Source: an uncultured bacterium (lineage in GTDB: Bacteria; Bacillota_I; Bacilli_A; Acholeplasmatales; Anaeroplasmataceae). From it: a stretch of DNA of 39,495 nt. Each line of letters begins with the position of its first letter. The first letter of the stretch is position 1. Location of the stretch: NCBI GenBank assembly GCA_949293265.1, contig CASFCK010000013.1:1-39495 (forward strand). The letters run 5' to 3'. Positions 12,476 to 30,984 of this stretch are shown in pieces. Position numbers and translations under genes: made by a program. Below the pieces are notes generated by a model. The model was not told the DNA's origin. It ran no database searches and saw only the letters and a list, made by a program, of their open reading frames with translations.

Positions 12476-12692
12476 AAATCCTCCTTAAATATAAAAACGT
12501 CCTTAGAAAAAAATCTAAGGACGAAAATTCGCGGTACCACCTTAGTTCTAGATAAAAATCTAGCCCTCTTTTAATTAATATTCTCCAATATTGTAATTCA
12601 TTTTAATAAATATGTTTATTTGCACCAACCATAAACTCTCTAAAATTATTTATTAAAACTACTTTATATTATCATCAAATTATAAACTTTCG
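12476..12692 (-). promoter_or_regulatory. Tyrosine T-box riboswitch leader of tyrS
   Basis: The minus-strand RNA contains the canonical T-box sequence TAAGGTGGTACCGCG (12544-12530). The terminator CGTCCTTAGA-A/T loop-TCTAAGGACG with a T5 tract (12523-12498) follows it. The T-box UGGU leaves U to pair with the discriminator A of tRNA-Tyr. The likely specifier codon is TAC in GAATTACAAT (12595-12593). An AGAGAG element and GGTTGGTGCAAA upstream fit a short Stem I. Uncharged tRNA-Tyr should stabilise the antiterminator and allow expression of tyrS and the two following genes. Confidence 0.93.
12498..12523 (-). terminator. T-box attenuator terminator
   Basis: A 10-bp stem with a 6-base loop, followed on the minus strand by TTTTTATAT. 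It is the OFF-state structure of the tyrS leader and ends about 22 bases before the start codon. Confidence 0.92.
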
Positions 12693-14170: not shown

Positions 14171-14200
14171 CTGAGGTAGCTATCTACCTAACTACCTCAG
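14171..14200 (-). terminator. Probable terminator of the 11-gene surface operon
   Basis: CTGAGGTAG (14171-14179) pairs with CTACCTCAG (14192-14200), 26 bp past the last stop codon. Downstream on the minus strand is ATTTTAAAT, a weak U tract, so termination may be partial. Confidence 0.6.
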
Positions 14201-14225: not shown

Positions 14226-17200
14226 CTATGTTTTTGTTGAATAAGAATCTCCATTAACCCCATAGTAAAGTTTTATTGTAGTTGTAGTTGTACTTGTAAT
14301 ATTTAATAGTCCATCTTCAATTATACCTGTAATATTATAACCAATAGTAGCACTAAATAGACCAGAAATTTTACTATAACCAGTTCCGCAATTATGGTTG
14401 TCTGCCAAAGAATATACATTAATAGTGCTACTATGTTTAACTATCACTTTAATTGGATCTAATTCTTCGTTCCTTCCTGCTCCCAATAAGGTTTCTTCAA
14501 AATAAACTCCAATTATGCTTAATTCATAGCAAGTAACAGCAACATAGTTTAATGATAACGTCATATTCTCTTTAATAGTTATACTTTCACCAACATTATA
14601 TCTTTGACCATTATAACTGTATGAAGAACCCGCTTGGTAAAATGTGCCATCAATATTATATGCACCTTCTATTGTGTTATTGTTATTGTTATTTTCATCA
14701 ACATTACCATATACTTCTTGATATACATTAGCTGTAGAATCTAAATTATAGCCTGCTAACGAAACTATTGAACCTGGCATATGATATTCTACTTTAGTAG
14801 ATGAGTAAGTATCTTTTGAGTAATCATATGTCAATCTTAACTTATCATTCCACTTAGCATAAAGTACTATTACATTGCTTGGGTTTGCTATTTCTGATAA
14901 TAATGTATCATTTGTTAATTCTATTAAATTACCATTACTATCTTTATAACACCAAACGCCTGATGTTTGACCGAAATACTTGCTAAATGTTGAATCATTA
15001 TCATAGCTTTGTGACCAAGTATAATAACTAGAATCAAGTGTAGATGTATCAAATGTAGATGTTCTAGTTTGAACATAATCTAAGCTTACATCACCACTTA
15101 TGCTTGAATTATTAACATCAAATTCTATTGTATACGTAGGATTAATACTAAATTCACAATATAGAGGTATATTAGTTGCATCATAATTGTTGATTATTTC
15201 ATCTAATAGTTCTATAGTAATTGAACTTAATAACAAACCTGATGTCTTATCATAACCTAAATACCAACCATCAAAGTAATACTGTTCATAAATTGCAGAA
15301 GGTAATGCGATAATGCCATCTACAAAGTTATTTATCGTAAATGAACTTGGTGAATTAATTGTAGCTTCATCAGTTACATTTTCTACCATGTCACCATCTT
15401 CATCAACAGTAACAACAATGTAACTAATATGATATTCTGTTTCTTTCCAGTTTGCGTATAAATTAATACTTCCACCATTATTTAATGTAATACCTGTAAA
15501 CTGGCTTCCATCTACATAAGACCAGTATACAAAGTCATAGTAGTCTCTTGTAGGTATAAATTCATCACCAGTTACATTATAAGTTGTGTCATCAACAGAA
15601 TAAACTGTAATAGTTTGCAATAAATCTTTATTATCATCATAAAAATTAATAGTAAACTGGTTAACATTATCAGCAGTTTGCCAATATACATCAGAACCAT
15701 CGCTAACTGATATATATACATTACCATTAGCAAAACTTGTCACAGTTCCATTAATATTAGCTGATGATGCTAAATCTGACCTATAAGCATTATAACCATC
15801 GCTATTATTTAAAATAACATAGGATGATGAGGTCCCTGCACTTGAACTCATAATTAACTGGGCTCCTTCACTAGATGTATTGACATATCCACCTATTGAG
15901 CCATTGACATTTAATGTACCATTTACTATAAATTCAGCATCAACTTTATCAATACAGTATTTATAAAAACTACCCCTAGATGTATTATTTAAATCAGGAT
16001 AATTAGCAAAATCATTAAATACTGTTATATCAACGCCATTATTGACTGTTACTGTAGCTCCTGTATCAATTTCAACTGTAGAACCTGGCAAGAAAGCATA
16101 ATCTGAATTAGAAAGTGTTAATGTAGAACCTTCTCTTACATAGATATCCATAAATCCAACTGTAGCTGGTTTTGACTTATCAGTTTTTAGAGAAACAGGG
16201 AAAACAGGAATATCTAAATCTATTGAGAGGGTTGAATCTTCAAATGTTCCATATAATTCAAATACATCCCTTTGACCAGCTATTTGGTTAGATCCAGTTA
16301 TTGAGAATAGTGCTACAGCATTGCTATTTGAATCAGCCCAACTATCAGCCTTAATTGTACTTTTACTTAGATAACCACCTGTTATTTTAAATATACAATT
16401 GCTACTAGAAGATGAACCCAATATAGTAGCTGTAGCTGAGGCATCAACTGTAAATACCTCCATGGTAAGATAAGTAAAAACAAAACCACTATATGTACAT
16501 CCCGCATAAATATCAATAGGACAAGAAATATTATGCATAGTCCATGCATTAGTTAGTAATACGTGCTTATACAAGCCACTGGCAGCACTACCACCTATCC
16601 AGTCATATGTAGCTAAGCAGTCTATTGCACTACTGCCATTGGTCATAGTGATTAAGCCATCACCATCACCTTTTATATATCCATAGGAATATAAGTTAGA
16701 ACTATCAATATTAATAGTTCCCAAATTATATACTACTCCTCTATCACAAACAATGGTTAGCTTTTCACCACCAGCATAACGTATTTGAGCTCCGACAAAT
16801 AAATTACCAGAAATAACATTTAAAGTTATTCCACTTGGAATAATTAGGGCTGAATAAACATAGCCTGATGATTTAGCAGTAGTACTAGTGTCATAATATT
16901 TTGAAACATCTGATGTGCTTTGATAAGGGACTAGTAAAGATCTATTTTCTAAATTATACTCTGTTGCATCTAAAATCTTTGAAAATGTTGTAGCAACAAA
17001 TTCTGTATTACTTAAATTACCTTCAGTTATTATATTTCTACCAGGAGTTGCTATTGCATCTTCAATGGTATAATAAGAACTACCAATCTTAACTGTTCGA
17101 TATTTTAATGTGATAGTAGCTAAGGATGTTTGATCATCATAACTGTTTTCTAGAGCATCTGTCTTAAACAATAAGGAAACATCAAGTAAATAGGTGCTGC

Positions 17201-18425
17201 CAACTACATAAGTGTTTAAATAAGTACTATTTAAACCCATATAATAGCCATTTGTATATTTATTATAAGTAGATGCATCATTTCCATAACCAAATGTGCC
17301 ATCATTCATACCATTTAATGTAAATTCAACTAAACCTATATCATTTGATAATAATCCATTAATTGATAAGCCACTAATATCTGTACTTAATAAAGAAGAT
17401 AATGCTGACCAAGTTCTGTTATTAGAACTATAAGAGTAAGAGAAAATTTGATTACTCATAGTTAAAGTTACTCTGTCTATAGATAAACTAGTTGTATAAT
17501 TGTCTTCAAGTGTATAATTGTTAGCATCAGCACCACCACTTATGTTAGCAGTAATATTATAATCACCAGCATAAAAACAACTTTGAACGTTCATATAACT
17601 AGTCTCATTATATTGTTTTCTTTGATAAGAATAACTAAATGTAACCGAATCTCCAACTATAATATCATCACTAGAACAAGTTATTGTTTTTTGGGCTGCA
17701 GAATAAACTAAACTACCAAGTTCATTAAAATTAGTTCCATCACAATACCAATAATCAATAGAGATAGGTTTTTTAGCTATATTAAAAGATTTGGTGTTAG
17801 AACTTAATGTATAATTAGTAGCATTATCACCAATTAAGTTTATAGTAGCATTATGACTTCCTGCATCCATAGTATCAGTAGATGAAGCTACAATATCTAC
17901 CTTATTTTTATCTCTATCATATAATAAACTTGAAATATCATAATTAGGTGTTTGACTTGTAGCATTATAAACTAAACTACTAGTTTCTGTGATTTGTGTT
18001 ACATCAAGCTCTTTAGGGGTAATAATAAAATTTATATCTTCAATATATATAATCTCTTCCTGTGAATTACCAGCTTCATCCTTTGTTTCTTTAACAAATG
18101 ATACTTGGACATCATAAGTTCCAGAATCAATGTAGCCTTCACTGTCTAAATTATTTATATCATCTACTTTAACATAACTATCTGTATCATCTTTATAATA
18201 ATATGTTAATTTACTATTATCTAACCTATTAGATATTGGTAATTGATAAGAACCATTATATTCTCTTGATTCTGCTTCTAAATAAGATTTAACTACATCT
18301 TCCGTAACATTAGCTGGATCTATTAGTCTATTAGTTGTTATATACCATATTGCATATACACTAGATAAAGATATAGCCAATACTAGTGCAATTATAGAGG
18401 CAATAATTACTACTCTTTTTCTCAT
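14226..18425 (-). CDS. Large surface protein with MBG, beta-helix-like and InlB-type repeats
   Basis: 1399 residues, last and largest gene of the operon. A long hydrophobic N-terminus ends in VYAIWYITTN, like the SipW-type signal peptides of the other clients here. Residues about 50-320 are MBG-type Ig-like repeats (Y-N-G/A-x-x-x-x-x-Y and DAGSHNATI, NYTLSSN patterns). Residues about 330-870 are rich in short Thr/Ser/Gly strands and may form a beta-helix or stacked Ig domains. InlB-like repeats (Y-x-F-x-x-W, LYANW, LYAKW) occupy about 890-1200. A poly-Asn tract lies near residue 1245. There is no LPXTG anchor. It probably works as an adhesin or matrix component; the ligand is unknown. Confidence 0.75.
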   Translation of the reverse strand: MRKRVVIIASIIALVLAISLSSVYAIWYITTNRLIDPANVTEDVVKSYLEAESREYNGSYQLPISNRLDNSKLTYYYKDDTDSYVKVDDINNLDSEGYIDSGTYDVQVSFVKETKDEAGNSQEEIIYIEDINFIITPKELDVTQITETSSLVYNATSQTPNYDISSLLYDRDKNKVDIVASSTDTMDAGSHNATINLIGDNATNYTLSSNTKSFNIAKKPISIDYWYCDGTNFNELGSLVYSAAQKTITCSSDDIIVGDSVTFSYSYQRKQYNETSYMNVQSCFYAGDYNITANISGGADANNYTLEDNYTTSLSIDRVTLTMSNQIFSYSYSSNNRTWSALSSLLSTDISGLSINGLLSNDIGLVEFTLNGMNDGTFGYGNDASTYNKYTNGYYMGLNSTYLNTYVVGSTYLLDVSLLFKTDALENSYDDQTSLATITLKYRTVKIGSSYYTIEDAIATPGRNIITEGNLSNTEFVATTFSKILDATEYNLENRSLLVPYQSTSDVSKYYDTSTTAKSSGYVYSALIIPSGITLNVISGNLFVGAQIRYAGGEKLTIVCDRGVVYNLGTINIDSSNLYSYGYIKGDGDGLITMTNGSSAIDCLATYDWIGGSAASGLYKHVLLTNAWTMHNISCPIDIYAGCTYSGFVFTYLTMEVFTVDASATATILGSSSSSNCIFKITGGYLSKSTIKADSWADSNSNAVALFSITGSNQIAGQRDVFELYGTFEDSTLSIDLDIPVFPVSLKTDKSKPATVGFMDIYVREGSTLTLSNSDYAFLPGSTVEIDTGATVTVNNGVDITVFNDFANYPDLNNTSRGSFYKYCIDKVDAEFIVNGTLNVNGSIGGYVNTSSEGAQLIMSSSAGTSSSYVILNNSDGYNAYRSDLASSANINGTVTSFANGNVYISVSDGSDVYWQTADNVNQFTINFYDDNKDLLQTITVYSVDDTTYNVTGDEFIPTRDYYDFVYWSYVDGSQFTGITLNNGGSINLYANWKETEYHISYIVVTVDEDGDMVENVTDEATINSPSSFTINNFVDGIIALPSAIYEQYYFDGWYLGYDKTSGLLLSSITIELLDEIINNYDATNIPLYCEFSINPTYTIEFDVNNSSISGDVSLDYVQTRTSTFDTSTLDSSYYTWSQSYDNDSTFSKYFGQTSGVWCYKDSNGNLIELTNDTLLSEIANPSNVIVLYAKWNDKLRLTYDYSKDTYSSTKVEYHMPGSIVSLAGYNLDSTANVYQEVYGNVDENNNNNNTIEGAYNIDGTFYQAGSSYSYNGQRYNVGESITIKENMTLSLNYVAVTCYELSIIGVYFEETLLGAGRNEELDPIKVIVKHSSTINVYSLADNHNCGTGYSKISGLFSATIGYNITGIIEDGLLNITSTTTTTIKLYYGVNGDSYSTKT

Positions 18426-18436
18426 TATTTACCCTC

Positions 18437-19018
18437 CTAGTTTTCACTTACTCTAAATGTTAAACTAAAACCCATGCCTGATGAAGCTATTAAATTCTTT
18501 AATGAATCATCACTAGCTATACTAAAAGTTAAGAATATTGTTCCTGTTTGAGCTTTAGAAACATTTGTAAAGTTAAATGTGACTGTACTAGACATATAAT
18601 CTGCTGCATTAGTAATTGAGTTTGTTAAACTTGCTGTATTGCTAGTGCTAAAGCTTGAGGTAGTAAAGATAGGTAAGGTTGTTGTTGAACTAATTTCAAT
18701 TATTACAGTAAAAGAACCATCATGGATAATTGTATAAGGTATTTCTATACTTCCACTATCAGCTAATTCAGTATTACTAGAAATAGTTTCATCATAAGCT
18801 ACAAAGCCCGTTGTATCACCTAAAGCACAATACTTAAACGACTTTATATTCCCTAATTCTAGGTAATCACTAAATGAGTCAACTTCTTCTGTATTAATTT
18901 CACCATTTACTGAACTATTTGAAGATGCTATATTCCACATTGAGAAACCTACACTAATTAAGGCTGCAAATAGGAATATAATAAAGAACATATATTTCAT
19001 TTTAAAGTTAATCTTCAT
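18437..19018 (-). CDS. TasA/SipW-type secreted protein (third small client)
   Basis: 193 residues. The N-terminal hydrophobic segment ends in ISVGFSMWNIASSN, which matches the GF[AS]xW signal motif of the clients at 28913-29662 and 29761-30411. The mature part is a Ser/Thr-rich beta protein (alternating patterns TVIIEISSTT and TIFLTFSIAS), with no catalytic motif. Such proteins, exemplified by TasA and camelysin, are cut by ER-type signal peptidases and can form fibres. It lies 28 bp after the lipoprotein gene and 11 bp before the large surface gene. Confidence 0.65.
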   Translation of the reverse strand: MKINFKMKYMFFIIFLFAALISVGFSMWNIASSNSSVNGEINTEEVDSFSDYLELGNIKSFKYCALGDTTGFVAYDETISSNTELADSGSIEIPYTIIHDGSFTVIIEISSTTTLPIFTTSSFSTSNTASLTNSITNAADYMSSTVTFNFTNVSKAQTGTIFLTFSIASDDSLKNLIASSGMGFSLTFRVSEN

Positions 19019-19046
19019 ATAGGCTTCTCCTTTCTTCTTTTAATAA

Positions 19047-20147
19047 TTAAGCATTCTTCTCCCAAACAGAATATAATGTTAAGTTAGTTAAGATTGGGGT
19101 TAAATCAGTGAATGCTCCAAGAGTTGGGTTTATTTCTCTTGATGTATACCAACCTTTAAATGTATATCCAGGATATACAGGAATAGGAATTGAATAACCA
19201 TTTTGTGTAAAATATGTATTAGCTAATACTTCATACATTAAACTTTGAGTAGAACCTGATATTAAAGATGGATCAATATCATCTGTAGTATCTGGGTCTG
19301 TTAAGGTAAAACTAACTATGCAATAATTAGTTCCGCCACCTAAACTAGCGATTAGAGTCCATCTACCATCTACTTTAGAATAAATTCTAGAATTTTGTGT
19401 ATTATAGTAGAAGTCACCATCTTTACCTAAATCATCAGTTGGGGTTGTGATACCTGATAACCAAACTGATGGTTGTTCAGGTCCATCAAATGATACTTCT
19501 TCGCTTGTACCATCGGTATAATAAATTGTTAAAACATATTCATTAGTTTCTGTATTTGTTGAACCCATTATATAATCAATACCTCTTGCTTCTTTTTGAG
19601 CTGGTATTGTTATATCATAACTAGAATTAGTAAATTCTAAAGTTACTGTTTGACTACCATCTTCATTTTCAACAGTAGTACAACCTACTAATCCTTCTCC
19701 TTTTTCACCTTTTGGAATAGCTATAGGTTCACTGATTGTACCATCCGAATAGTTAACATAAACATAGGTTGTTCCAGTTTCTTCATCTAATTCTGATGTT
19801 ATACCAGTTACTGAGGTACCATTTGATACATCAAAACTCACTTCAGGATCTGTTTGACCGGTTAGATAGATAGAAACAGTTTTTCCCGTACCTGTCTCAT
19901 TATCTTTAACTACTATAGTTTGAATACCTGTACCATCTTTACCACTTGGAATAGCAAACCTTTCTGGCTCTTTGTCTTTGTCTTCATAAGTTATAACAAG
20001 ATAAGTTGTATCATCAACAACTTCAGTTGTAATAGAAGCTATACCTGAATTACTCCTAGAACTTGATGAAGTAAACCCACAACTAACAAATAATAAAGAT
20101 AACAAAGCTATACTAAATATTAAGATTATTCTTTTACTTAAACTCAT
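19047..20147 (-). CDS. Lipoprotein with tail-fibre-like repeats and an InlB-type repeat
   Basis: 366 residues. The signal peptide carries a lipobox FVSC with Cys23 as lipidation site. Residues about 35-215 hold three repeats ending in IPSGKDGTGI, IPKGEKGEGL and IPAQKEARGI, each after a Y-x-D-G/K strand pair. The section near residue 240 (GKDGDFYYNTQNSRIY, then W-T-L-I-A-S-L) resembles segments in phage tail and collagen-like proteins. The C-terminus (about 285-366) is an InlB-like repeat (YTFKGWYT, LYSVWEKNA). Its start overlaps the 794-residue gene by 4 bp. It probably anchors the surface structure to the membrane. Confidence 0.7.
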   Translation of the reverse strand: MSLSKRIILIFSIALLSLLFVSCGFTSSSSRSNSGIASITTEVVDDTTYLVITYEDKDKEPERFAIPSGKDGTGIQTIVVKDNETGTGKTVSIYLTGQTDPEVSFDVSNGTSVTGITSELDEETGTTYVYVNYSDGTISEPIAIPKGEKGEGLVGCTTVENEDGSQTVTLEFTNSSYDITIPAQKEARGIDYIMGSTNTETNEYVLTIYYTDGTSEEVSFDGPEQPSVWLSGITTPTDDLGKDGDFYYNTQNSRIYSKVDGRWTLIASLGGGTNYCIVSFTLTDPDTTDDIDPSLISGSTQSLMYEVLANTYFTQNGYSIPIPVYPGYTFKGWYTSREINPTLGAFTDLTPILTNLTLYSVWEKNA

Positions 20148-22528
20148 TGTTTATTCCTCGCGTTTTCTTTTAATTCACTTAATTCAGGAGTTTTACCAAA
20201 TAAATATCCATCAGATATATAAGTATATTTAAATGGTTCATAACCAATAACTATCGTTACTGCTTTGCACATTAGGTTACGAATCATGTTAAGAGTTGAC
20301 GTATTAGTTAAATCTAGATAATTATCTAACAAATCTATTTCATTATCACTAACTAAATAGGCCTGCATATGTAGAGTATTAATATTACAAACTGACATGT
20401 TTTTAGCCCCGCCATAAAATACAATAGGAACATTTACGTAAGTATCTGTACCATCGCTATACGTGCTAGCACTAGAAAATAAATATTCTTTTAATGGGAA
20501 GAACATATCAATAGATATTTCTCCATCATATTCAGTACCAAATATATCACCAGCATCTGAAGCAAAAGCAGATATATTCTCATTAATTATACCACTAATA
20601 TCCATTTCATCATAGGTTTTATAGTCATAAAACTTAGTTGAACCTGTTATATCAACCATAACAGGATATGATAATCCACCAATATTAGTAGGAACATAGT
20701 CCACCAAAACGCCTAGTAAATTAGATATAACACTAGGAACTCCACTATATAAGAATGGACCATTAAACATTGAATCAATAGATATAGAAGCTATACCACT
20801 TTGATAGAACAAACTATCTTCAATAGTTAATGAACTATGATACTGCCCTTCTATTAAAGAGGCATCATTTAGAGCTTCTTGAATAGATAAAATAGCTGTT
20901 CTAATTTTTTCTTTATCCTCATATTCACCCATAACATAGTCATTTAGGTCTTCATCACCTATACCTTCTGCCGCTAAATATTCAGCTATAGTATAAATAG
21001 CTTTATTACCACTAGAATCTATAAATTCAAATTCAGTATTATCATCAATTGGGATACACTCATTTGAACCTATTGAAACTAGGAAGTTTCTTGAATTAGA
21101 TAACATTGAATTTATTAAACTTGTATTCATTGATTCATAAACTCTTAATACACATCTACCATTAGATAAGTTACAGTTAATTATTGTATTATTATTACCA
21201 TATACATCAACTACCGTACCTGTATAATGAAGATTCGATAACATATTACCAAAGTCACAATTTTTAATCGTTAAATCATTGACTATAATATTATTTCCAT
21301 CAATATAGAAACCAACATTATCTTGACCTAAAGCTTCAATTAATGGCATTGAATTATGATTACCTAAAGTGTAATAAGGTAGCGGACCTCTAAATAGATC
21401 AGTTTGACTTAAGGTTGGCACATTTATAACACCACTATCACTAGTTACCTGAGTAACATCAGTAGGGTAAGTTAAGTTGTGTAAATTAACCGTATAACCA
21501 TTGCCATAAAAGTCTTTTTGAACATGAATACCAGCAACTAATTCTTTACTTATTTGACTATCTTCATCGTTTTTCATATATTCATTCCAGCTATCAATAT
21601 AGTCAGTATTGTATGTAGTTTCAAAATAATATGCTTCACCTTCAAAATTAAAACTACCATTATTATAAGTGCCAAACAATTCAACATTATTCTTATCCCT
21701 TTGTTCTTCATAATTAACTAAAGACTCAAAGGATTTACGAAGAACGACAATCTCGCCATCTTCACTTCGGTTAGTACAATTTAATAAATCTTCATAAGTA
21801 TAAACATTAACGCCATCTTTAACGATGTTTAAATTAAGTGTATAAACTGAATCTATTAAAGTTTCATCTTCACAAGAAACAACAATATATTCTTCTATGC
21901 TTGCATCACTTTGAACCTCTACTATAATTTGTTTACTATCAATTTCAGCTTTAAGGCCATTTGATACTTCTTTGATAACAATAGTATCTAAGACTTTTTG
22001 TTCTGAACTTGAGACGTCAAAAGTTATTCTAGCATTTACCTTAGTTGTTCCATCAAGATCATATTGACCATAATAGATATTGGGATCAATATTATTACCA
22101 CTAGCGCTAATCTCAGAATTTAATAAAATATAAGCCCCTTCATAGATTAAGGCATTAAACGATTTAGATACATTACCTTTAGCATTGCTACAAGTAATTA
22201 TAACATTGCCTGGACTAATTGCTTTTAAATAATAATATTCATTTAGCTCTGTTATTTCAGCATGTACTTCTTGGTCTGTTGTATCAGCATTAGTCAAAGA
22301 CCAAACTAACTCATTATTAGGGCCAGCTGGATAATCTTTTTCACTAATTCCAGTAGCATTTAATAAATATAACTCATCTCTCACTTTAAAAGCTTCATTA
22401 TCATTATATGACCATTCAATTCTAATAATATCATTTTGAATAAAACTAAATGTTGATGATATAGTGACAATTCCTAATAAAGCAATTAGAAAAGGAATGA
22501 TTAATAAAATAATTAGGTTTCTCTTCAT
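20144..22528 (-). CDS. Exported membrane-anchored beta-helix-like protein
   Basis: 794 residues. One N-terminal membrane segment (residues 5-28) is followed by an extracytoplasmic part. Residues about 40-120 look like a Big2-type Ig domain (the ELYLLNATG and SPGNVIITCSNAKGNVS patterns). A right-handed beta-helix is suggested at about 310-480 by stacked N-rich turns (NNIIVNDLTIKNCDF, NNNTIINCNL, ESMNTSLINSML). The C-terminal 300 residues are unrecognised. It overlaps the ABC permease stop by one base, so its translation is tied to the exporter. I do not know its function; a scaffold for surface assembly is a guess. Confidence 0.65.
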   Translation of the reverse strand: MKRNLIILLIIPFLIALLGIVTISSTFSFIQNDIIRIEWSYNDNEAFKVRDELYLLNATGISEKDYPAGPNNELVWSLTNADTTDQEVHAEITELNEYYYLKAISPGNVIITCSNAKGNVSKSFNALIYEGAYILLNSEISASGNNIDPNIYYGQYDLDGTTKVNARITFDVSSSEQKVLDTIVIKEVSNGLKAEIDSKQIIVEVQSDASIEEYIVVSCEDETLIDSVYTLNLNIVKDGVNVYTYEDLLNCTNRSEDGEIVVLRKSFESLVNYEEQRDKNNVELFGTYNNGSFNFEGEAYYFETTYNTDYIDSWNEYMKNDEDSQISKELVAGIHVQKDFYGNGYTVNLHNLTYPTDVTQVTSDSGVINVPTLSQTDLFRGPLPYYTLGNHNSMPLIEALGQDNVGFYIDGNNIIVNDLTIKNCDFGNMLSNLHYTGTVVDVYGNNNTIINCNLSNGRCVLRVYESMNTSLINSMLSNSRNFLVSIGSNECIPIDDNTEFEFIDSSGNKAIYTIAEYLAAEGIGDEDLNDYVMGEYEDKEKIRTAILSIQEALNDASLIEGQYHSSLTIEDSLFYQSGIASISIDSMFNGPFLYSGVPSVISNLLGVLVDYVPTNIGGLSYPVMVDITGSTKFYDYKTYDEMDISGIINENISAFASDAGDIFGTEYDGEISIDMFFPLKEYLFSSASTYSDGTDTYVNVPIVFYGGAKNMSVCNINTLHMQAYLVSDNEIDLLDNYLDLTNTSTLNMIRNLMCKAVTIVIGYEPFKYTYISDGYLFGKTPELSELKENARNKQ

Positions 22529-24117
22529 TAATTTGTCACATCCAAATCTAAAAACATATTTTTATACTTTACTAATAGCATAATTATTTCTGGTATTCCT
22601 ATTATAACTAAAGCTAGTATACCTACTAGATAAGAAATATAAATAGAAATTTGGAAATAAGACATAAAAGCTGTAATAACAAAATAAATAACAGGCAATA
22701 AATAAGCGTATAAACTAGACACAAAATATGATCTAGGTTTCGCGTGTCTAATACTTAGCTCTTCTTTTAAACTAATTAAATTATAGATTACTAATAAGAT
22801 AAAACATAATAGTAAACCAAAACTAAAAGTACTAACAGATATAGCATTTGTTAAAAGTAAAACTAGCATAGTAACAATTAATGCTATTAAAGAAAAGACA
22901 AGTGGTATTAAGACTTTAATAGTTAATTGTTTTTTTATAGATATTGGAATCGTCTTAATTACCTTAATTGTATTTTTTTCCATTGTTATATATTTATTAG
23001 CCCCAGCCGCGATAATCATTGTAAATAACATGATAACTAAAATATCAAAGAGTGGAAAAAAGTTTGGCACTACAGAAATATAATAAGCAAAGATTCCATC
23101 TTTAAAAATCGTATTTAACGAACTTACAACAAAATAAGCCAAGAATGGTTCTACTATCAACAAACCAATAAATGAGAAAGTATAATCCGTATTCTTAGTC
23201 AACATGGTTAACTCTTTTTTGATTAGACCGATTGTCTCACTTTTAACTTTATATTTATGTTCTTTAGCTTTAGTCTTAAAGTTAACAGCTACATTTCTTG
23301 CATAATTATAGCTAAATATAGCAATACTTAAACCAAAAATAAAGACACCTAGCGCTATGGCAATATAAGGAAAGAAATAAAGAGCTTTGTTTTCTACAAA
23401 AATACTTGTTAAAAATGACGTCAAGAAATATTCTCTTAAATTAATAACAAACTCAATTTTTGAAGTTGTTAATAAAGCATTAATACCAGATTCTGATAAA
23501 GAATTAACAAAAACATTTAAAATATAAGAATAGATTATAGTTATGCCAAATAATAGACCTAGAGCTACTATATATCTTACAATTATATGTTGCTTTAAAA
23601 ACTTAATTAATAAATAAAATGGATATACTAAAACAAGGGCAATACCTACTTCAAAAAAGAAAGTTAAAACCGGATAAAATAAAGCAACGTAGTAAAACAA
23701 AGGAGCCTTATTCAAAATATTGCCGTAGGCAACAAACAAAGGATAAATAAATAAAATAGATATAGCATAATGGAATAAAAACAAAAATATAATCTTCGCC
23801 ATTATTATACTTGCATTTGAAACCGGTCTAATTGATAGCTGTTCAATATCTTTTTCGTTAAAAAATAGTTTAGAAGCTCTTGATGTATCAGCAAAAATAA
23901 CTAATACTTCAACGACAGTTAAAAATAGGGTTAAAAAAGCTGCTGACGCATTAACAATATTAGATATCTTATTTAAAATAGTTAAAAACATATAATATTC
24001 AATGCCTATTACAATTACCAAAAATAGAACAATGAATAAAAACTTAGTAAACCATTTAATTGTACTTTGTTCTTTGCCAAAAAATAGCTTTAAATCTTTA
24101 ATTAAAATATTAATCAT
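22528..24117 (-). CDS. ABC-type exporter permease
   Basis: 529-residue polytopic membrane protein with about 12 hydrophobic helices and an early cytosolic loop carrying FFNEKDIEQLSIRPVS (about residues 85-100). Related blocks in ABC-2-type permeases contact the ATPase. A basic cytosolic loop lies near residues 270-300. The start overlaps the ATPase stop by 4 bp (ATGA), so the two form one transporter. Substrate is unknown; the operon context suggests export or membrane handling of the surface components. Confidence 0.8.
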   Translation of the reverse strand: MINILIKDLKLFFGKEQSTIKWFTKFLFIVLFLVIVIGIEYYMFLTILNKISNIVNASAAFLTLFLTVVEVLVIFADTSRASKLFFNEKDIEQLSIRPVSNASIIMAKIIFLFLFHYAISILFIYPLFVAYGNILNKAPLFYYVALFYPVLTFFFEVGIALVLVYPFYLLIKFLKQHIIVRYIVALGLLFGITIIYSYILNVFVNSLSESGINALLTTSKIEFVINLREYFLTSFLTSIFVENKALYFFPYIAIALGVFIFGLSIAIFSYNYARNVAVNFKTKAKEHKYKVKSETIGLIKKELTMLTKNTDYTFSFIGLLIVEPFLAYFVVSSLNTIFKDGIFAYYISVVPNFFPLFDILVIMLFTMIIAAGANKYITMEKNTIKVIKTIPISIKKQLTIKVLIPLVFSLIALIVTMLVLLLTNAISVSTFSFGLLLCFILLVIYNLISLKEELSIRHAKPRSYFVSSLYAYLLPVIYFVITAFMSYFQISIYISYLVGILALVIIGIPEIIMLLVKYKNMFLDLDVTN

Positions 24118-24863
24118 TTTTTATTTCCGCCATAAGTGTCAAAGAATATTTTTGATAATTGTAGACGTTTATTAGGGTTTCTATTTAAATCGAATAATTC
24201 ACATACTAAACCATCGTTAATTATGGCCACCCTATCACAAATCTTAGATACAAGCTCAATATTGTGACTTGTAACAAAAACTGTGTTATTATGATCTGCA
24301 TATTCACGCATCATCTTTTTGAGTTCTTCAACTGCCATAATATCAAGACCTACAGTTGGTTCATCTAAAATCCATAATTTAGGGGAATGAAGAAGGCTTG
24401 AAATTAAACATAGTTTTTGTTTCATACCATGACTATATGATTGGATTTGATTAGATAAGTCAGCTTCTTCAAGTTGCAACCTTTGGCATAAATAATTTGT
24501 ATTACGTTTAAAATCACCTTCACTCAAATGATAAATACTAGCTACAAATTCTAAGAAATCATAGCCTGTCATTTCATCATAACAAGTTGGTTCACTAGCT
24601 ACATAACCAAAGTTTTTCTTGGCCTCTAAAGCATCATATTTAACATCATAATCACATAGATGGATAGATCCACTATTAAATCTCTTAGCCCCAATCATAC
24701 AATCAATGGTTGTACTTTTACCAATCCCGTTTTTTCCGATAAAGCCAAATAGCTCACCTTCATATACTTCGAGACTTAAGCCTTTTAAGACTTCTTTTTT
24801 ACCATATGATTTATGCAAGTCTTCAATTTTAATAATTACTTTCGGTAATACTTTTTCTTGCAT
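24114..24863 (-). CDS. ABC transporter ATPase
   Basis: 249 residues, cytoplasmic. Walker A GKNGIGKST is near residues 43-51, the signature is YSHGMKQKL near 147, Walker B LWILDEPTVGLD follows, and the H-loop is in FVTSHN. The subgroup matches ATPases of ABC-2-type exporters. It pairs with the permease at 22528-24117. An AGGAGG site precedes the ATG, and it starts 10 bp past the DUF2357-like gene. Confidence 0.92.
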   Translation of the reverse strand: MQEKVLPKVIIKIEDLHKSYGKKEVLKGLSLEVYEGELFGFIGKNGIGKSTTIDCMIGAKRFNSGSIHLCDYDVKYDALEAKKNFGYVASEPTCYDEMTGYDFLEFVASIYHLSEGDFKRNTNYLCQRLQLEEADLSNQIQSYSHGMKQKLCLISSLLHSPKLWILDEPTVGLDIMAVEELKKMMREYADHNNTVFVTSHNIELVSKICDRVAIINDGLVCELFDLNRNPNKRLQLSKIFFDTYGGNKK

Positions 24864-24873
24864 AAACGACCTC

Positions 24874-26085
24874 CTATTTAATTAGCCAAATTATATCATC
24901 TTCTAAATAAGTATATATACTACCACATTTTTCGCAAACATAGACATTATTAGTATAATCTATACTGTTACGACATATTAGACAATATTTATTATAGATA
25001 TTAGAATCTACTTTAATGATATGAGTTAATTTATTTAAGTAGATCTCAATTAACTTAATTTCAGAAATTACACTACTAGATAAATATTTATCTTTTTTTA
25101 TATCATAAATATTCCAAATATCAAATAAAGAATAAGATAAGATATCACTATCTTCATAATTATTTAGTTCTTCTGTTGTGTCAAAAATCAAGCGGTGTCT
25201 ATAAGGTGTTTTGTATTTATTAGATTTAACTAATATATCAATATAATTAGTATTTGTTATTTTCAATTCTATACCAAATATACCATTAGAAAATGACATA
25301 TTAGCAACTTTTTTATACCCTAAATCAGATAGAGCTTTCATTATCAAATAAGTCAAATAAGAATTAAAATCAATAATTAAGTCATTTATATCGTCATAGA
25401 CTATAAACTTCTTATAAAATTTATAACAATAATTATAAAGTCGATCTTTTAATAAGATATTAGTGGGCTTTATAAAGCGTTCATTAAAATTGGTTTTACT
25501 AACAGTTTTATAAAAAGATGAGTTTTTAACATATCTTAGCTTACGTAACAACGAATCAATTAACTCTATAGCTTCAATTACATAATCTTTATTAACAATA
25601 AGATCACTATTATCTAAAGTAGAAATAAGTTTTAAGTAATGCAATCTATAAGAAATTAATTCACTATTAATTAAATCAATTAATAGACAAATAAACATAT
25701 TCTCATAGATGTCAATTTTATCAGTATATAAAACATTATGTACATATTCTGGTTGCATAAGACGTTTACTATTTTCTTTCCACAGTGATGGGTCTTTAAT
25801 AGTTAGGCTAAAAGACTCACTATTTAAAGACTTAGCTTGTTCACTTCTTATAATAACCTGTTCTTCTTTAGACAGAATATGAGGTTTAGCAATTATAGTA
25901 TTAATTACACTAATAATAAACTTTAATTCAGCAAAATATTCTTTATCATTAGCTAAAGAACTATGTTGTAATGAGGGAAGATTTAATTTTTTTATATTAG
26001 TGTAATAGCTGTTTTTATTATCTCTTAGATAAAATTCTAAGTTATTAATTACTTCATTTAATAATTTTGCTTCGAAAAATCGCAT
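24874..26085 (-). CDS. DUF2357/McrC-like protein with C-terminal zinc ribbon
   Basis: 403 residues, no signal peptide. A central block near residues 115-140 (VLYTDKIDIYENMFICLLI) resembles the conserved Y-E-N-x-F/R core of DUF2357 proteins, the McrC-like partners of McrB-type AAA+ ATPases. Those usually end in a PD-(D/E)XK nuclease. Here the last 40 residues are instead a zinc ribbon with two CxxC pairs (CLIC and CEKC, about 365-387). It ends 10 bp before the ABC ATPase and starts 4 bp after the AAA+ gene. A non-nuclease adaptor role is my inference. The family call is from motif recall. Confidence 0.55.
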   Translation of the reverse strand: MRFFEAKLLNEVINNLEFYLRDNKNSYYTNIKKLNLPSLQHSSLANDKEYFAELKFIISVINTIIAKPHILSKEEQVIIRSEQAKSLNSESFSLTIKDPSLWKENSKRLMQPEYVHNVLYTDKIDIYENMFICLLIDLINSELISYRLHYLKLISTLDNSDLIVNKDYVIEAIELIDSLLRKLRYVKNSSFYKTVSKTNFNERFIKPTNILLKDRLYNYCYKFYKKFIVYDDINDLIIDFNSYLTYLIMKALSDLGYKKVANMSFSNGIFGIELKITNTNYIDILVKSNKYKTPYRHRLIFDTTEELNNYEDSDILSYSLFDIWNIYDIKKDKYLSSSVISEIKLIEIYLNKLTHIIKVDSNIYNKYCLICRNSIDYTNNVYVCEKCGSIYTYLEDDIIWLIK

Positions 26086-26089
26086 AATA

Positions 26090-27901
26090 CTACAACTTTC
26101 TAATTAAACTATTAATTAATTTTTGACTCCTTACAAAAACATCTTTACCATAAGTTTTAACAATTAAGCTATCTAGACTTTTTAAACCATCTTTAACATA
26201 ATCTTCAAATCTACCTTCAAGCTTAGAAATAATCTTATGTGATAATAAGAAGTCAAGTGCAGTTTCTTTAGTACCACCACAGGCTACATAAACAGGAACT
26301 AATTCTTCAATTTGATTTAAAACACGGTTACCAAATGTTAAATCAAATTCTTCGTTAATATAATTAGTTATACTATTAAATTTATCATAATCATCAACAT
26401 TCAAATGTTTAACCATATCACTTCTAGCATCATTAACTAAACTTGCAAACTTAGTCTTAGATAATACGATTTCATTGACATCTTCTTTAACTTCAAACGG
26501 AATATTACGTTCATCAAAATCAATCGTAATCGCTCTATCATAAACTTTATTAGTGATTGTAAATGTTGAATCATCTTTATTAGCTGTACCAATAAAATAA
26601 GAGTTATTAGGTATTTGAATAATACCATCATCTAATTTAGCTGGTGGAATAAAGTCATATGGTAAATGCATTAATCTTAATTTCCATTCAGATTCTGGGT
26701 ATTCAAGAATAGATAAGAAATCTGCAAAATAATATTCAACTCTAGAAATATTCATTTCATCTAAAACAAAGAAATATAGTCTATCAGGATTATAATTAGC
26801 TCCATATAAACTTAATAAGAAATCTGTCTCAGAATAAGTTTTAGAAAATTCATTAAAATAACCAAGTAAACTCGATTTATCTCGATAAGTAGCTTGAACA
26901 GCCACAAATTGTAAATTTGAATTAGTAAATCTTGCAAAGTATCTTGGTAAGCTTGATTTACCTGTACCTGATAAACCTTCTAAAATCATAAAATGACTAG
27001 TAGCTAAACCAGCTATAAAGAATCTAATAGTATCAATATCAAAATATAATTCTTCAGTTTTAGCTAGATACAATCTAAATTGATTACATAAATCAAATAA
27101 ATTAATATCCGTAGATTCAATAGATTCAATACTATAACCATCATATTCAACATCTAATTTAGATAGTGATGGGAATACTTTTTCTCTATCATCTAGTTCT
27201 AAAGCTTTTGGATTATATTCTTCTTTTATGGAAGTGCTAGATATGTTGCCAATTCCAGAACTAACACCAACATTACTTGTCTCTTGATTTGCTAATGGTT
27301 CAAAGTTTTGGCTTACATCAGATTTTATTAAGTCTTCATCATCAAAATCAGGCAATTCATTATGTTTAAATGATTTAAATTCTTTATCAATGTTAATAAA
27401 GTTAACTACAAGCATTACTATTGAACCTAATAAACAAAAAGCTATTAAGTAAATGATTAAAGCTAAAAATAAACATTGACCTAAAAAATTAAATAATGTT
27501 CCTATATTACTAGCATTTAAAGGTCTTTGAATAATAACACCAATACCAATTGATAATAATAAGCAAAACAAAACAGTTAAAACTATAGCTAAAACAATCT
27601 TAGGTGACCTAAATTTAATATTATTAACTTTAGCATAACGATATATATAAAGTATAGCGACAAAACCAACTATTATATATAATGCCATAAGAACTAAAGC
27701 GATAGCCCCAGATAACCCACAAGCTATAACACTAAACTTAAATCCTTTAGCTAATAGAGCTATTGGATTATCTTCTACAAAAAAGTTATGATTTCCCTCT
27801 ATACAAGCCCCTACAAATAAAGTTAAAAAGGAATATAAAGCTACTAGGGATATAGCTATTAAGTTTTTTCTTGTAAAATAATTCTTATTCTTTTTTTCCA
27901 T
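26090..27901 (-). CDS. Membrane-anchored McrB/MoxR-like AAA+ ATPase
   Basis: 603 residues. Four membrane helices occupy about residues 12-172, an acidic linker about 175-260, and an AAA+ domain the rest. Walker A is GLSGTGKSS (near residue 310) and Walker B LYFFVLDEMNISRVE (near 378), where the DEMN form is typical of McrB-like and MoxR-like ATPases. The sensor region is FIGTANKDDSTF. Most McrB proteins carry a DNA-binding N-terminus; here there are membrane helices. It lies between the signal peptidase and the DUF2357-like gene in one operon, which suggests energy-driven remodelling at the membrane rather than DNA restriction. Confidence 0.85.
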   Translation of the reverse strand: MEKKNKNYFTRKNLIAISLVALYSFLTLFVGACIEGNHNFFVEDNPIALLAKGFKFSVIACGLSGAIALVLMALYIIVGFVAILYIYRYAKVNNIKFRSPKIVLAIVLTVLFCLLLSIGIGVIIQRPLNASNIGTLFNFLGQCLFLALIIYLIAFCLLGSIVMLVVNFINIDKEFKSFKHNELPDFDDEDLIKSDVSQNFEPLANQETSNVGVSSGIGNISSTSIKEEYNPKALELDDREKVFPSLSKLDVEYDGYSIESIESTDINLFDLCNQFRLYLAKTEELYFDIDTIRFFIAGLATSHFMILEGLSGTGKSSLPRYFARFTNSNLQFVAVQATYRDKSSLLGYFNEFSKTYSETDFLLSLYGANYNPDRLYFFVLDEMNISRVEYYFADFLSILEYPESEWKLRLMHLPYDFIPPAKLDDGIIQIPNNSYFIGTANKDDSTFTITNKVYDRAITIDFDERNIPFEVKEDVNEIVLSKTKFASLVNDARSDMVKHLNVDDYDKFNSITNYINEEFDLTFGNRVLNQIEELVPVYVACGGTKETALDFLLSHKIISKLEGRFEDYVKDGLKSLDSLIVKTYGKDVFVRSQKLINSLIRKL

Positions 27902-27911
27902 TACTTTATAC

Positions 27912-28853
27912 CTATTTCTTTAGATTTTTTTTAATTACTTTTCCTAATGATTCCTCATTTAATACATCATCTTTTATTTGACATTTACCTAAATAACTAT
28001 CTTTAGAAAAATGATATTCTATACCTTTATAATATAATATAGTCTTAATATCTTCTTTATTATATTCTGAATTATTCCCATTTGCTAAGCTATTTAAAGT
28101 TTGCATTCTTTCATTTTGGGCTTTTAAAACCTTATTAGAAAAATAATCAATAATAAATAAACAAAATAATAAGCATATTATTGTAGCTAAACCAGCAGGA
28201 GATTGTAAAAATAATACAAATATGCCAACACCTTTAATATGATTTCCAGTATAGACACCAATAATATCATCAAATTCTACTAAAACCGGATCACTAGAGG
28301 TGTTCGCATCGCCACGAGTAATATATGTTCCATTATCATTAATGTTAACTATTCTATGAATAATATTTTCAGTGCCATTATAATAAGCTATCGTATCATA
28401 TAGTTCAAGTTCACTAGAATTATTCACTTGCTTAATAACGATAATATCATAAGTATCAAACTGATCATTTAGGTTATTTTCTATTAAATAGTCGTTAATC
28501 TCATTCTTATAACTCATTGAACCAGAAGCTACAACCATAATAGACCGTCCCCCAATCATAACTACACCATTATTCTTAATACTAATAATAGCCGTTATCA
28601 AAAAAGGTACTATTATAACTAATAAAAAAGCATAAATAACCCATTTTATTATTTTGCCATGTTTTTGGCTTTTCTTAAGTTTTTCTTCATCTTTCTTTAA
28701 AATATTAGTTAAAAGAACACTATCTTCCTTACCACTTAAGACTTCACTTACTTGTATTTTTACAAACTTAGAATATAAAAATACAAATAGTACGGCAAAT
28801 ATTCCAACACCTAATATTGTTATAATCAAAGATATTAACTCTTGTTTAGGCAT
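27912..28853 (-). CDS. ER-type (SipW-like) signal peptidase I
   Basis: 313 residues, with membrane helices at about 7-29, 70-93 and 210-232. The S26B pattern is visible: catalytic Ser112 in ASGSMS, His166 in HRIV in place of the Lys of bacterial type I enzymes, and Asp182/Asp188 in TRGDANTSSDP. SipW of Bacillus subtilis is such an enzyme and matures TasA and TapA. Substrates with matching signal peptides flank it (28913-30411 and 18437-19018). The long N-terminal cytosolic loop (30-69) and the C-terminal 80 residues are longer than usual. Confidence 0.88.
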   Translation of the reverse strand: MPKQELISLIITILGVGIFAVLFVFLYSKFVKIQVSEVLSGKEDSVLLTNILKKDEEKLKKSQKHGKIIKWVIYAFLLVIIVPFLITAIISIKNNGVVMIGGRSIMVVASGSMSYKNEINDYLIENNLNDQFDTYDIIVIKQVNNSSELELYDTIAYYNGTENIIHRIVNINDNGTYITRGDANTSSDPVLVEFDDIIGVYTGNHIKGVGIFVLFLQSPAGLATIICLLFCLFIIDYFSNKVLKAQNERMQTLNSLANGNNSEYNKEDIKTILYYKGIEYHFSKDSYLGKCQIKDDVLNEESLGKVIKKNLKK

Positions 28854-28875
28854 CTTGATCCCCCTTTACAAATGA

Positions 28876-28904
28876 AACCGCAGCAACCAGTGGCCACTGC
28901 GGTT
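28876..28904 (-). promoter_or_regulatory. Intercistronic hairpin between client gene and signal peptidase gene
   Basis: AACCGCAG (28876-28883) pairs with CTGCGGTT (28897-28904) around a 13-base loop. A competing 12-bp palindrome, CAGTGGCCACTG, lies at 28888-28899. Only a weak T run follows, so it may be an attenuator or an RNA-stability element that separates the level of clients from that of the machinery. Confidence 0.6.
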
Positions 28905-28912
28905 ATCATCTA

Positions 28913-29662
28913 CTAATTAACAGTAGCAGATACATAGACTGTAAAATCTAATATATCGTTTTTATGATTATTTATTACTTCAGACCTATTACTACCATCT
29001 TCATTAAACTCAGAAATATAGCCATATAAAGTGGCTCTAAAATTCTCTAGTTCTGTTACAACATCATTATCAGAAACTAAAATACCAGAAGGATCGGCAT
29101 CATAATAAAGTCCAGGGTTCATATTACCGAATTTAGACCCCCAACCAAATTCTAGGGTTACATTTAGAGTATATGTATCTAGTAATTTTTCAGAATCAAG
29201 TAAAGTAATACTATAACCACCACTAACTAAGTCACTACCATCTAGTATAATGGCATCACTTAAAATAGTATTACAAGAAATATATCCTTCTTCTATAGCA
29301 TCTAGTACCCCTTGAGGTACACATAAAAATACTTTTAAGCTACCTAGATATGAAACAGGTGAAACTTTAGCTGTTACAGTTATTGATAAAGACTCAAAAT
29401 TTTTTCCATCATTTCGAACTCTACCAGATGTATCATCTTCCGTAGGCTCAAACATAATAACATCTTTACTTAATATTAGGTCTTCAATTTTCAATTGTCC
29501 CTCAACAATTAAACCTGCGCCAACATTACCATTATCCTCACTATTCGCATCTCTAGACATAGCCCAAACTGCAAAACCAGTAGAAATTAGAGCGACGGAA
29601 GCAAACAAGGATAACCCAAAAACAAATAGTTTTCTTTTAAAAAAACCACGTGTTAATCGCAT
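28913..29662 (-). CDS. TasA/SipW-type secreted client, paralogue of the next gene
   Basis: 249 residues. A basic N-terminus and hydrophobic core end in ISTGFAVWAMSRDAN, a SipW-type signal peptide; NVGAGLIVEGQL after it resembles the start of mature TasA-like proteins. The mature domain is beta-rich. Near the C-terminus FGWGSKFGNMNPGLYYD matches ASWGTAFEGQNPYYYYN of the neighbour, so the two are paralogues. SD TAGGAG lies 9 bases upstream of the ATG. Likely fate: cleavage by the peptidase at 27912-28853, then surface or fibre assembly. Confidence 0.7.
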   Translation of the reverse strand: MRLTRGFFKRKLFVFGLSLFASVALISTGFAVWAMSRDANSEDNGNVGAGLIVEGQLKIEDLILSKDVIMFEPTEDDTSGRVRNDGKNFESLSITVTAKVSPVSYLGSLKVFLCVPQGVLDAIEEGYISCNTILSDAIILDGSDLVSGGYSITLLDSEKLLDTYTLNVTLEFGWGSKFGNMNPGLYYDADPSGILVSDNDVVTELENFRATLYGYISEFNEDGSNRSEVINNHKNDILDFTVYVSATVN

Positions 29663-29760
29663 TTAAATCGCTCCTATCAATCAATTAATTAGTAAATATT
29701 CAATTTTAGTTTTTTCGTATTAGTTTGTAGTTTTAAATAATAAAATAAATGTTAGAATTA

Positions 29761-30411
29761 TTATTCAGAGTAGGCACCAACTTCAACCTTTAAGTTAAAT
29801 AACACCTTAGAAGATATTTCATTCAATGCTTTTAAAGCAGTTGTTGCTTTTGAAGCAAGATCTGGAGTATATTCTTGTTTATTGTAATAATAATATGGGT
29901 TTTGTCCTTCAAAAGCAGTACCCCAAGAAGCTTTTACTGTTATAGATAAAGTTCCATTAGAGTATGATGCAGCTGTGATTTTACAATCACCAATATATTC
30001 ACTTGATATTAAATCTTCTAATGTAACCGTAATTTCATCTATATCATTATCTAAACTAACAGAATGTGCGTCTTCAGCAATTTGAGGAGTCAAAGTTTCA
30101 GATAAATTTTCGCCACCCTTTTGTATAGTAGTAGTAAATACTACTTCTAAATCTTCATAAACAGCATCATCGCTTGTCAACCACTTATAAGTTGTGACTG
30201 TTGGACTTTCAGGATCAGAAAACTTAAAGTCACCATCAGGTGTTATTTCAGAAATTGTATATGAGTTATTAGAAACTGTTTCTGTTGTAAATTGACCATC
30301 TCTTCCTACAGGTTCTGGCTCATTAGAAATAACCCAACCGGCAAAACCTACACCAATCATTGCTACGCATAGTAACACTAGTGCGCTTATTGTAAAAATT
30401 TTCTTTTTCAT
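29761..30411 (-). CDS. TasA/SipW-type secreted client, first gene of the operon
   Basis: 216 residues. The signal segment ends in IGVGFAGWVISNEPE, the clearest member of the GF[AS]xW set. The mature part begins DGQFTTETV, then beta-rich, acidic sequence, and closes with the WG-x2-F-x3-NP-x2-YY motif shared with its 249-residue paralogue. As promoter-proximal gene behind a consensus promoter it should be the most strongly transcribed product, as expected of a structural subunit. Its Shine-Dalgarno is separated from the ATG by a hairpin (see 30423-30455). I find no enzymatic motif. Confidence 0.72.
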   Translation of the reverse strand: MKKKIFTISALVLLCVAMIGVGFAGWVISNEPEPVGRDGQFTTETVSNNSYTISEITPDGDFKFSDPESPTVTTYKWLTSDDAVYEDLEVVFTTTIQKGGENLSETLTPQIAEDAHSVSLDNDIDEITVTLEDLISSEYIGDCKITAASYSNGTLSITVKASWGTAFEGQNPYYYYNKQEYTPDLASKATTALKALNEISSKVLFNLKVEVGAYSE

Positions 30412-30467: not shown

Positions 30468-30496
30468 ATTATAGTATTATTTAAAATGCATGTCAA
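30468..30496 (-). promoter_or_regulatory. Consensus promoter of the 11-gene surface operon
   Basis: On the minus strand TTGACA (30496-30491), 17 bp, TATAAT (30473-30468): a perfect sigma-A promoter. The start would be near 30461, giving a 50-base leader with the SD hairpin. No cre-like site is visible here. Confidence 0.9.
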
Positions 30497-30714: not shown

Positions 30715-30984
30715 TCAAATAAACAATTTAAATATGAAAACATTTTTAAAAGTTGTCGTTATGCTATCATGACTTAACATTAATTGTTTTTCCCCGATCG
30801 TATTAGTATTACCACCAGATACAACCATATCACTAGTAACAGGAGTTTTTTCTTCACTATTTTGATCAACAAAATATAAGCCTGTTAAATCAACTAGTCG
30901 ATTATCTGCATCATAAATTACTTCTTTGTTAAAACTTTCATCAACAAATGAATAAATTGTGTTCCTTGACAAGCAATTTATCAT
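30715..30984 (-). pseudogene. Remnant of a bacterial Ig-like-domain surface gene
   Basis: 89 codons remain. Residues about 15-80 read as most of one bacterial Ig-like domain (VIYDADNRLVDLTGLYF, then V-T-S-D-M-V-V-S-G and IGEKQLMLSHDSITTTF), the type found inside large surface proteins. There is no signal peptide and no SD at the first ATG, the first residues are unrelated, and the C-terminus (FKNVFIFKLFI) departs from the domain pattern at its last strand. I take it as the degraded core of a deleted surface gene. A strong orphan promoter (31068-31097) still points at it. Confidence 0.6.

Follow-up and report, generated by a model that had tools for sequence, protein, structure and literature searches.

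The closest described relative of the locus analysed here is CoCoPALM, in which a McrB-like NTPase of the NxD type and a DUF2357 partner are found near signal peptidases, a system described in one paragraph and without experiments (Bell 2024, PMC11090510). Its NTPase carries an FtsB-like transmembrane (TM) segment and a coiled coil, its McrC homologue is usually fused to a coiled coil, and a pilus role was predicted for it (PMC11090510). The literature searched contained no follow-up papers on CoCoPALM, none joining SipW or TasA with McrB in a relevant way, and nothing on SipW surface fibres in Tenericutes. We know of no experiment that shows a McrB-type NTPase serving surface assembly. Dedicated SipW peptidases are described in small Bacillus units, tapA-sipW-tasA of B. 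subtilis and sipW-tasA/calY of B. cereus, which need no sortase and contain no AAA, McrC or ABC parts (PMC9674648, PMC4292775).

The window (the whole stretch of DNA analysed, 39,495 nucleotides) contains eleven minus-strand ORFs between 14226 and 30411, confirmed at the positions given by the first-pass annotation (Table 1); the identities it had assigned also hold, with G matching DUF2357, F matching ABC_tran, I resembling SipW and H resembling McrB. The tight packing that it had reported is borne out (gaps along transcription of 98, 59, 10, 4, 10, -4, -1, -4, 28 and 11 bp, hence eight of ten at or below 28 bp and three of ten overlapping). The eleven genes likely form one transcript, judging from their layout and signals: two perfect promoters were found in the operon region as compared with 0.09 per dinucleotide shuffle, and a terminator-like hairpin follows the last gene. 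A second hairpin separates client J from the SipW gene, a gap that also holds strong hairpins in six other loci (L088, L090, L094, L098, L099 and L107); it could lower expression of the downstream genes, so that more client than machine could be made.

Table 1. Features of the operon and its borders in the window
Feature	Coordinates	Strand	Description
Terminator-like hairpin	14171..14200	-	just 3' of last gene A
A	14226..18425	-	1399-aa exported protein; SipW-type signal SVYAIW
B	18437..19018	-	client 3, 193 aa; SipW-type signal VGFSMW
C	19047..20147	-	lipoprotein, 366 aa; lipobox LFVSCG
D	20144..22528	-	794-aa exported protein, one N-terminal TM; adjoins E in nearly all loci
E	22528..24117	-	permease, 529 aa, partner of F; about 12 predicted TM helices
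F	24114..24863	-	ABC transporter ATPase; Pfam ABC_tran
G	24874..26085	-	McrC-like protein, 403 aa; DUF2357, McrC-like C-terminal fold, four-cysteine zinc ribbon
H	26090..27901	-	membrane AAA+, McrB type, 603 aa; Walker A GLSGTGKS, Walker B FFVLDEMN, NxD motif GTANKDD
I	27912..28853	-	SipW/ER-type signal peptidase, 313 aa; three predicted TM helices
Hairpin	28876..28904	-	13 bp, weak T tail; between client J and SipW
J	28913..29662	-	client 2, 249 aa; signal STGFAVW
K	29761..30411	-	client 1, 216 aa; SipW-type signal VGFAGW; client-family member
Promoter	30468..30496	-	TTGACA-17-TATAAT, 12/12 consensus; 57 bp upstream of client gene K
Remnant	30742..30976	-	start of G003 4160-aa lipoprotein gene; 235 bp, 96% identical

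By its motifs and predicted helices, H is a membrane-anchored McrB-like NTPase of the NxD type. Four to six TM helices are predicted from hydropathy within residues 12-173, before the AAA domain; residues N441, D443 and D444 of the NxD motif are invariant in 17 sequences; and the only PDB match to a profile of H and its relatives is E. coli McrB (E = 1.7e-4). Protein G exceeds the cut-off of Pfam DUF2357 (27.2 bits against 23.3), and its AlphaFold2 model (pLDDT 87) can be aligned with E. coli McrC across its two domains (Z 7.0 over 236 residues for 6hz4_M, Z 6.9 over 241 for 6ut6_G). This match came from VIA-align only and lies, at a Z of 7, below the level that would prove kinship alone; it leans on the DUF2357 match too, and the two combined convince us. 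Foldseek by itself returned nothing significant for this model or for that of the client, and the sequence profile of G found in the PDB zinc ribbons and weak matches only, including a weak resemblance to the zinc ribbons of ribosomal proteins (E = 0.013). Across relatives, the ribbon cysteines (C368, C371, C384 and C387) are invariant and no catalytic D, E or K is conserved in the McrC-like C-terminal fold: in the nuclease-like region (228-356) a single position is more than 50% D/E (55%), and none is more than 50% K. The DUF2357 match, the McrC alignment, the unconserved acidic and lysine positions and the invariant ribbon together make G look like a McrC with a dead nuclease. The pair thus shares with McrBC type IV restriction an AAA domain and a McrC-like two-domain partner, but it differs in its predicted membrane anchor, its NxD rather than NxxD motif, its degenerate nuclease, its exported-protein neighbours and its lack of a methyl-DNA-binding domain (no Pfam match on H, the N-terminal part of which is TM helices).

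With CoCoPALM the operon has in common an NxD NTPase with a membrane part, an adjoining DUF2357/McrC gene and a linked signal peptidase gene. It differs in the membrane part itself, where the FtsB-like TM segment and coiled coil give way in H to the helices described above and a linker; the absence of an FtsB-like part from H rests on alignment and hydropathy, in that the coil-like segment ELxDEKNKIL of sister AAA proteins is missing from the window-type rows of the alignment, and H gave no match to DivIC/FtsB in Pfam, which missed FtsB in the sister proteins too. G is also short (403 aa, as compared with roughly 500-900 aa for the McrCs of sister SipW loci) and bears a zinc ribbon, and the window adds a block of ABC ATPase, permease, D and lipoprotein in a genus without PBPs or sortases. 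Because the NxD motif, DUF2357 and peptidase linkage are found here and the FtsB-like TM segment with its coiled coil is not, we regard the operon as resembling CoCoPALM without counting it as a member. The description of the machine as undescribed is not fully supported, since CoCoPALM was already named for this set of an NxD McrB-like NTPase, DUF2357 and a signal peptidase (PMC11090510); a signal peptidase beside a McrB-type NTPase is not new in itself, whereas the variant and its setting are.

The export side of the operon resembles the Bacillus units in having a dedicated SipW beside small, beta-rich exported clients with the same type of signal, and from its sequences it would work like a SipW-client system; that Bacillus TasA-SipW loci have none of the AAA+, DUF2357-like or ABC parts, as had been claimed, fits the published tapA-sipW-tasA operon (PMC9674648). 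Peptidase I resembles SipW/TIGR02228 (SipW model E = 1.8e-15, below curated cut-offs), with Ser112, His166 and Asp182 invariant in 22 of 22 sequences and Asp188 nearly so. The signal motif [FYW][AS]x[WF] is common to K, J, B and A, and D is a possible fifth carrier, its 'SSTFSF' lying outside the strict motif; the three small clients first counted (K, J and B) do carry the signal, but at least four genes have it. Within the same loci, the motif occurs in 66 of 79 client-family ORFs as compared with 74 of 515 other ORFs with an N-terminal TM segment.

The label 'TasA-like' survives for the signal region of the clients and is not supported for the mature domain: in hhalign, only a 30-residue signal region of the client aligns with the TasA/camelysin profile, neither Pfam nor NCBIfam gives a PF12389 (TasA/camelysin) match in the window clients, and the mature domains of the Bacillus clients have no detectable homology to those of the window. 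TasA homology of the mature client domain was rejected by the profile comparison. The AlphaFold2 model of client J has a single N-terminal helix followed by a beta-sandwich with helices, whose fold matches are unrelated generic beta-sandwiches (best Z 6.6); TasA is not among the matches listed, which does not speak against a TasA jelly roll. Proteins with PF12389 do sit inside sister SipW-AAA-McrC operons of two genomes. The three proteins first described as large and exported are all predicted to be exported, the 366-aa C being a lipoprotein with a C-terminal repeat of the List_Bact type that resembles internalin B. D contains many invariant columns across 19 sequences, has no known family and gave chance-level matches only, mostly nanobodies, and A, which closes the unit, is variable (618-1399 aa in the loci that have it). 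Most loci have one or two clients before SipW; in four (L091, L092, L093 and L096) there are tandem arrays of six or seven. In one operon of another genome (L196:2933-17999, G122:C1), a single AAA-McrC pair is surrounded by about seven clients and three SipW paralogues, as if each paralogue served its own clients. A second SipW of the window genome has an exported protein on each side and is accompanied by neither AAA nor McrC (L198:9661-12284, G000:C4); G007 shares this arrangement (L199), which is perhaps the core system of the genus.

When 84,980 species genomes were searched with the AAA alignment, 80 loci came up. The window type comprises 35 loci (fetched loci, the window and its congeners, mostly gut MAGs), about 33 of which are independent, since two contigs were fetched twice (L032 = L104 and L034 = L106), and in them the unit of client(s), SipW, AAA, DUF2357, ABC, permease, D and lipoprotein recurs with its order conserved: SipW is present in 35, DUF2357/McrC in 34, D in 33, ABC and permease in 31 each and the lipoprotein in 30, several of the absences falling at contig ends or in broken frames. 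Median pairwise identity is 44% for the AAA protein and 22% for the clients and for McrC. Divergence of the other parts correlates with that of the AAA protein (Spearman 0.88 for SipW, 0.86 for permease, 0.79 for McrC, 0.74 for D, 0.65 for ABC, 0.54 for client and 0.31 for lipoprotein), with at most 1 permutation in 500 reaching each of these seven values. Chance co-location of the operon genes is refuted by this recurrence in 35 loci and by parts that diverge in step with the AAA protein; the proposal of a conserved unit for surface-protein biogenesis is upheld, the genes being clearly linked in relatives rather than scattered.

In the wider family, 99 of 296 sampled genomes of the class have such an AAA gene. 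Among the 65 membrane-type AAA copies of 60 related genomes and the window's own, 38 have a SipW-family gene within 5 kb, where about one would be expected if placement were random, as against none of the 22 copies of two other AAA classes. Besides a clade of the window type (support 90), the AAA tree shows groups linked to SipW that lack ABC-D, as well as giant-protein and 'double' loci; these last two have the AAA-McrC pair without SipW, so that the pair does not need SipW. The AAA protein of one congener, G001, nests inside the window-type clade (support 96), and there the AAA-McrC pair lies among N_methyl pilin-like genes in a region of pilB, pilC and prepilin peptidase. This likeness to type IV pilus loci stops at the pair, in that PilB, PilC, prepilin peptidase and N_methyl pilins are absent from the eleven window genes. 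The same NTPase would here serve a different filament class, the pair apparently accompanying different classes of filament-forming or exported proteins. Several large N_methyl proteins (up to 1233 aa) surround the pair in L033 and L075 (G001:C7).

The double loci come from six species that differ from each other (L036, L037, L038, L040, L050 and L143), and in each the McrC gene is flanked by two AAA genes. Within a genome, the DNA of their AAA domains is about 100% identical over roughly 1 kb, whereas the membrane parts at their N-termini are unrelated, a pattern indicative of ongoing gene conversion and perhaps of a mixed ring of two membrane-anchored subunits. A separate NxD class pairs an AAA protein of 890-930 aa with a DUF2357-like partner of about 520 aa (L057-L061, L063, L064 and L066), and SipW was near it in 0 of 15 cases.

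The ABC-permease-D set looks like a separable module. With a D' protein, it is found in four congeners without adjoining AAA, McrC or SipW clients (G002, G003, G005 and G007), D' being also present in G001 and thus in five of the eight genomes of the genus, and the operon therefore looks composite. The first-pass annotation had read the operon as one machine, which in view of this separability is not fully supported. One such set (L186:184-18064, G003:C16) consists of ABC, permease and a Big_2 D' followed by a 4160-aa lipoprotein with MBG repeats, and would be a stand-alone surface exporter module.

The sister genome G003 is 97-99% identical to the window in the DNA beside the operon and has no membrane-type AAA, no client and a distant D' only; at the operon site it has ABC, permease, D' (998 aa) and the 4160-aa lipoprotein. 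From this cluster and the 235-bp scar of its lipoprotein gene in the window, it appears that the window lineage replaced one surface cluster by another at this site, a replacement seen from the right edge, the left edge being on another contig in G003. G002 and G007 have both clusters at different places. In G002, G004 and G007 the operon blocks stand in another order and the AAA proteins group with other lineages, which suggests that the operon was transferred horizontally as a unit; the blocks [ABC-permease-D] and [lipoprotein-client-large] are swapped between operons of the window type and those of the L104/L106/L118/L121 type. An assembly chimera was set aside, because the unit recurs in about 30 other MAGs and the contig, part of a draft assembly, is contiguous through the scar and has a GC content of 22-33% throughout; a phage origin was also set aside, phage genes being absent among the ORFs checked.

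The host genus is probably wall-less, because PBP transpeptidase and sortase are absent from eight of its eight genomes (among 14 control genomes, the former is present in 10 and the latter in 3). This reading agrees with published predictions that peptidoglycan was lost repeatedly in this part of the Bacilli, and reduced display of surface proteins has been inferred for lineages predicted to have neither walls nor sortases (PMC10868615).

We lean towards reading the operon as a horizontally exchanged, composite surface-assembly machine of a probably wall-less bacterium of the Acholeplasmatales type; that its function is sortase-independent biogenesis of a surface fibre or coat is fairly probable. 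The sequence-supported parts of this reading are the signal, peptidase, NTPase, partner, exporter module and co-inheritance: small clients would bear one signal-anchor helix and a cleavage motif of the SipW type, to be cut by the co-encoded ER-type signal peptidase with its intact Ser-His-Asp site. These clients are fast-evolving predicted beta-sandwich proteins, in up to six or seven copies in some relatives, and lipoprotein C, D and the variable A are predicted to be exported as well. We infer polymerisation and the use of NTP on the subunits: after Sec insertion and SipW cleavage, clients would form fibres or a coat by polymerising outside the cell, A being a putative tip or adhesin, C and D a putative membrane-proximal base, and ABC-permease-D an added exporter or anchoring module. 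A ring of H with G as its activator, stripped of nuclease residues, would sit on the inner membrane face and use GTP or ATP for the handover, extraction or gating of signal-anchored subunits where these are assembled. In McrBC, a stalk-like extension of McrC inserts into the McrB hexamer and activates it (PMC11090510); the membrane form might be a gate, segregase or engine. Our proposal that H-G works as a motor or segregase directly on subunits anchored in the membrane is tentative. Because G001 has PilB too, the pair would not simply be a PilB substitute, and a role in handover or quality control suits both the SipW and the G001 pilin settings.

A broader idea, which we hold as doubtful, is that nuclease-stripped membrane McrB/McrC is a distinct class of energy source for building extracellular filaments, interchangeable between SipW fibres and type IV pilin-like proteins, by which wall-less bacteria build a protein envelope without peptidoglycan or sortases. 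If a McrB-type NTPase does serve surface assembly here, a family of DNA-restriction enzymes has been turned into a surface-assembly part, the signal peptidases at CoCoPALM loci are explained, and lineages predicted to lack walls and sortases gain a concrete surface-building system. The roughly 33 independent loci and the cluster replacement at one site between close genomes identify the operon as a surface module that gut bacteria can exchange.

The most substantial alternative, credible even if we do not favour it, is that one promoter serves at least two independent machines with no direct cooperation, SipW and its clients with AAA-McrC on one side and, on the other, another surface exporter made up of ABC-permease-D with the lipoprotein and large protein. 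The four congeners in which ABC-permease-D' stands alone (adjoined in G003 by the giant lipoprotein gene), the swapped blocks, and the SipW with exported proteins that the window genome keeps apart from any AAA (L198) all speak for such a division, against which the full set is kept together in about 30 diverged loci with parts that diverge in step, and the overlapping frames from ABC through lipoprotein suggest tight coupling.

Compared with this, anti-phage defence seems improbable: a membrane-anchored descendant of type IV restriction would sense attack at a surface appendage and act on invading nucleic acid. Kinship with McrBC, predicted RNA targeting by some systems of the NxD branch (PMC11090510) and the match of the H AAA domain to the PADLOC defence-candidate model PDC-M26A (5.3e-36) are what it would explain, together with patchy presence and replacement between close genomes, patchiness that is also typical of surface antigens. 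The nuclease-like domain, however, does not conserve catalytic residues, the unit has no nuclease, methyltransferase or HEPN gene, and its constant partners are exported proteins; in PADLOC, McrC, SipW, clients, permease and D gave no matches and the ABC ATPase F matched several generic ATPase models. Less probable again is that H-G controls expression rather than assembly, as a membrane NTPase that would bind RNA and capture ribosomes or the mRNA of clients there. The likeness of the G ribbon to ribosomal-protein ribbons and the predicted RNA binding of sister CoCoNuT systems (PMC11090510) point that way, but the ribbon match is weak and such ribbons bind proteins too, a search for RNA-binding domains found none, and the link to type IV pilin-like genes in G001 would require a changed RNA target.

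Elsewhere in the window, positions 6786-10145 encode a lipoprotein-like surface protein of 1119 aa that has List_Bact repeats together with a pectinesterase domain, and a T-box leader (12514-12684) lies upstream of tyrosyl-tRNA synthetase.
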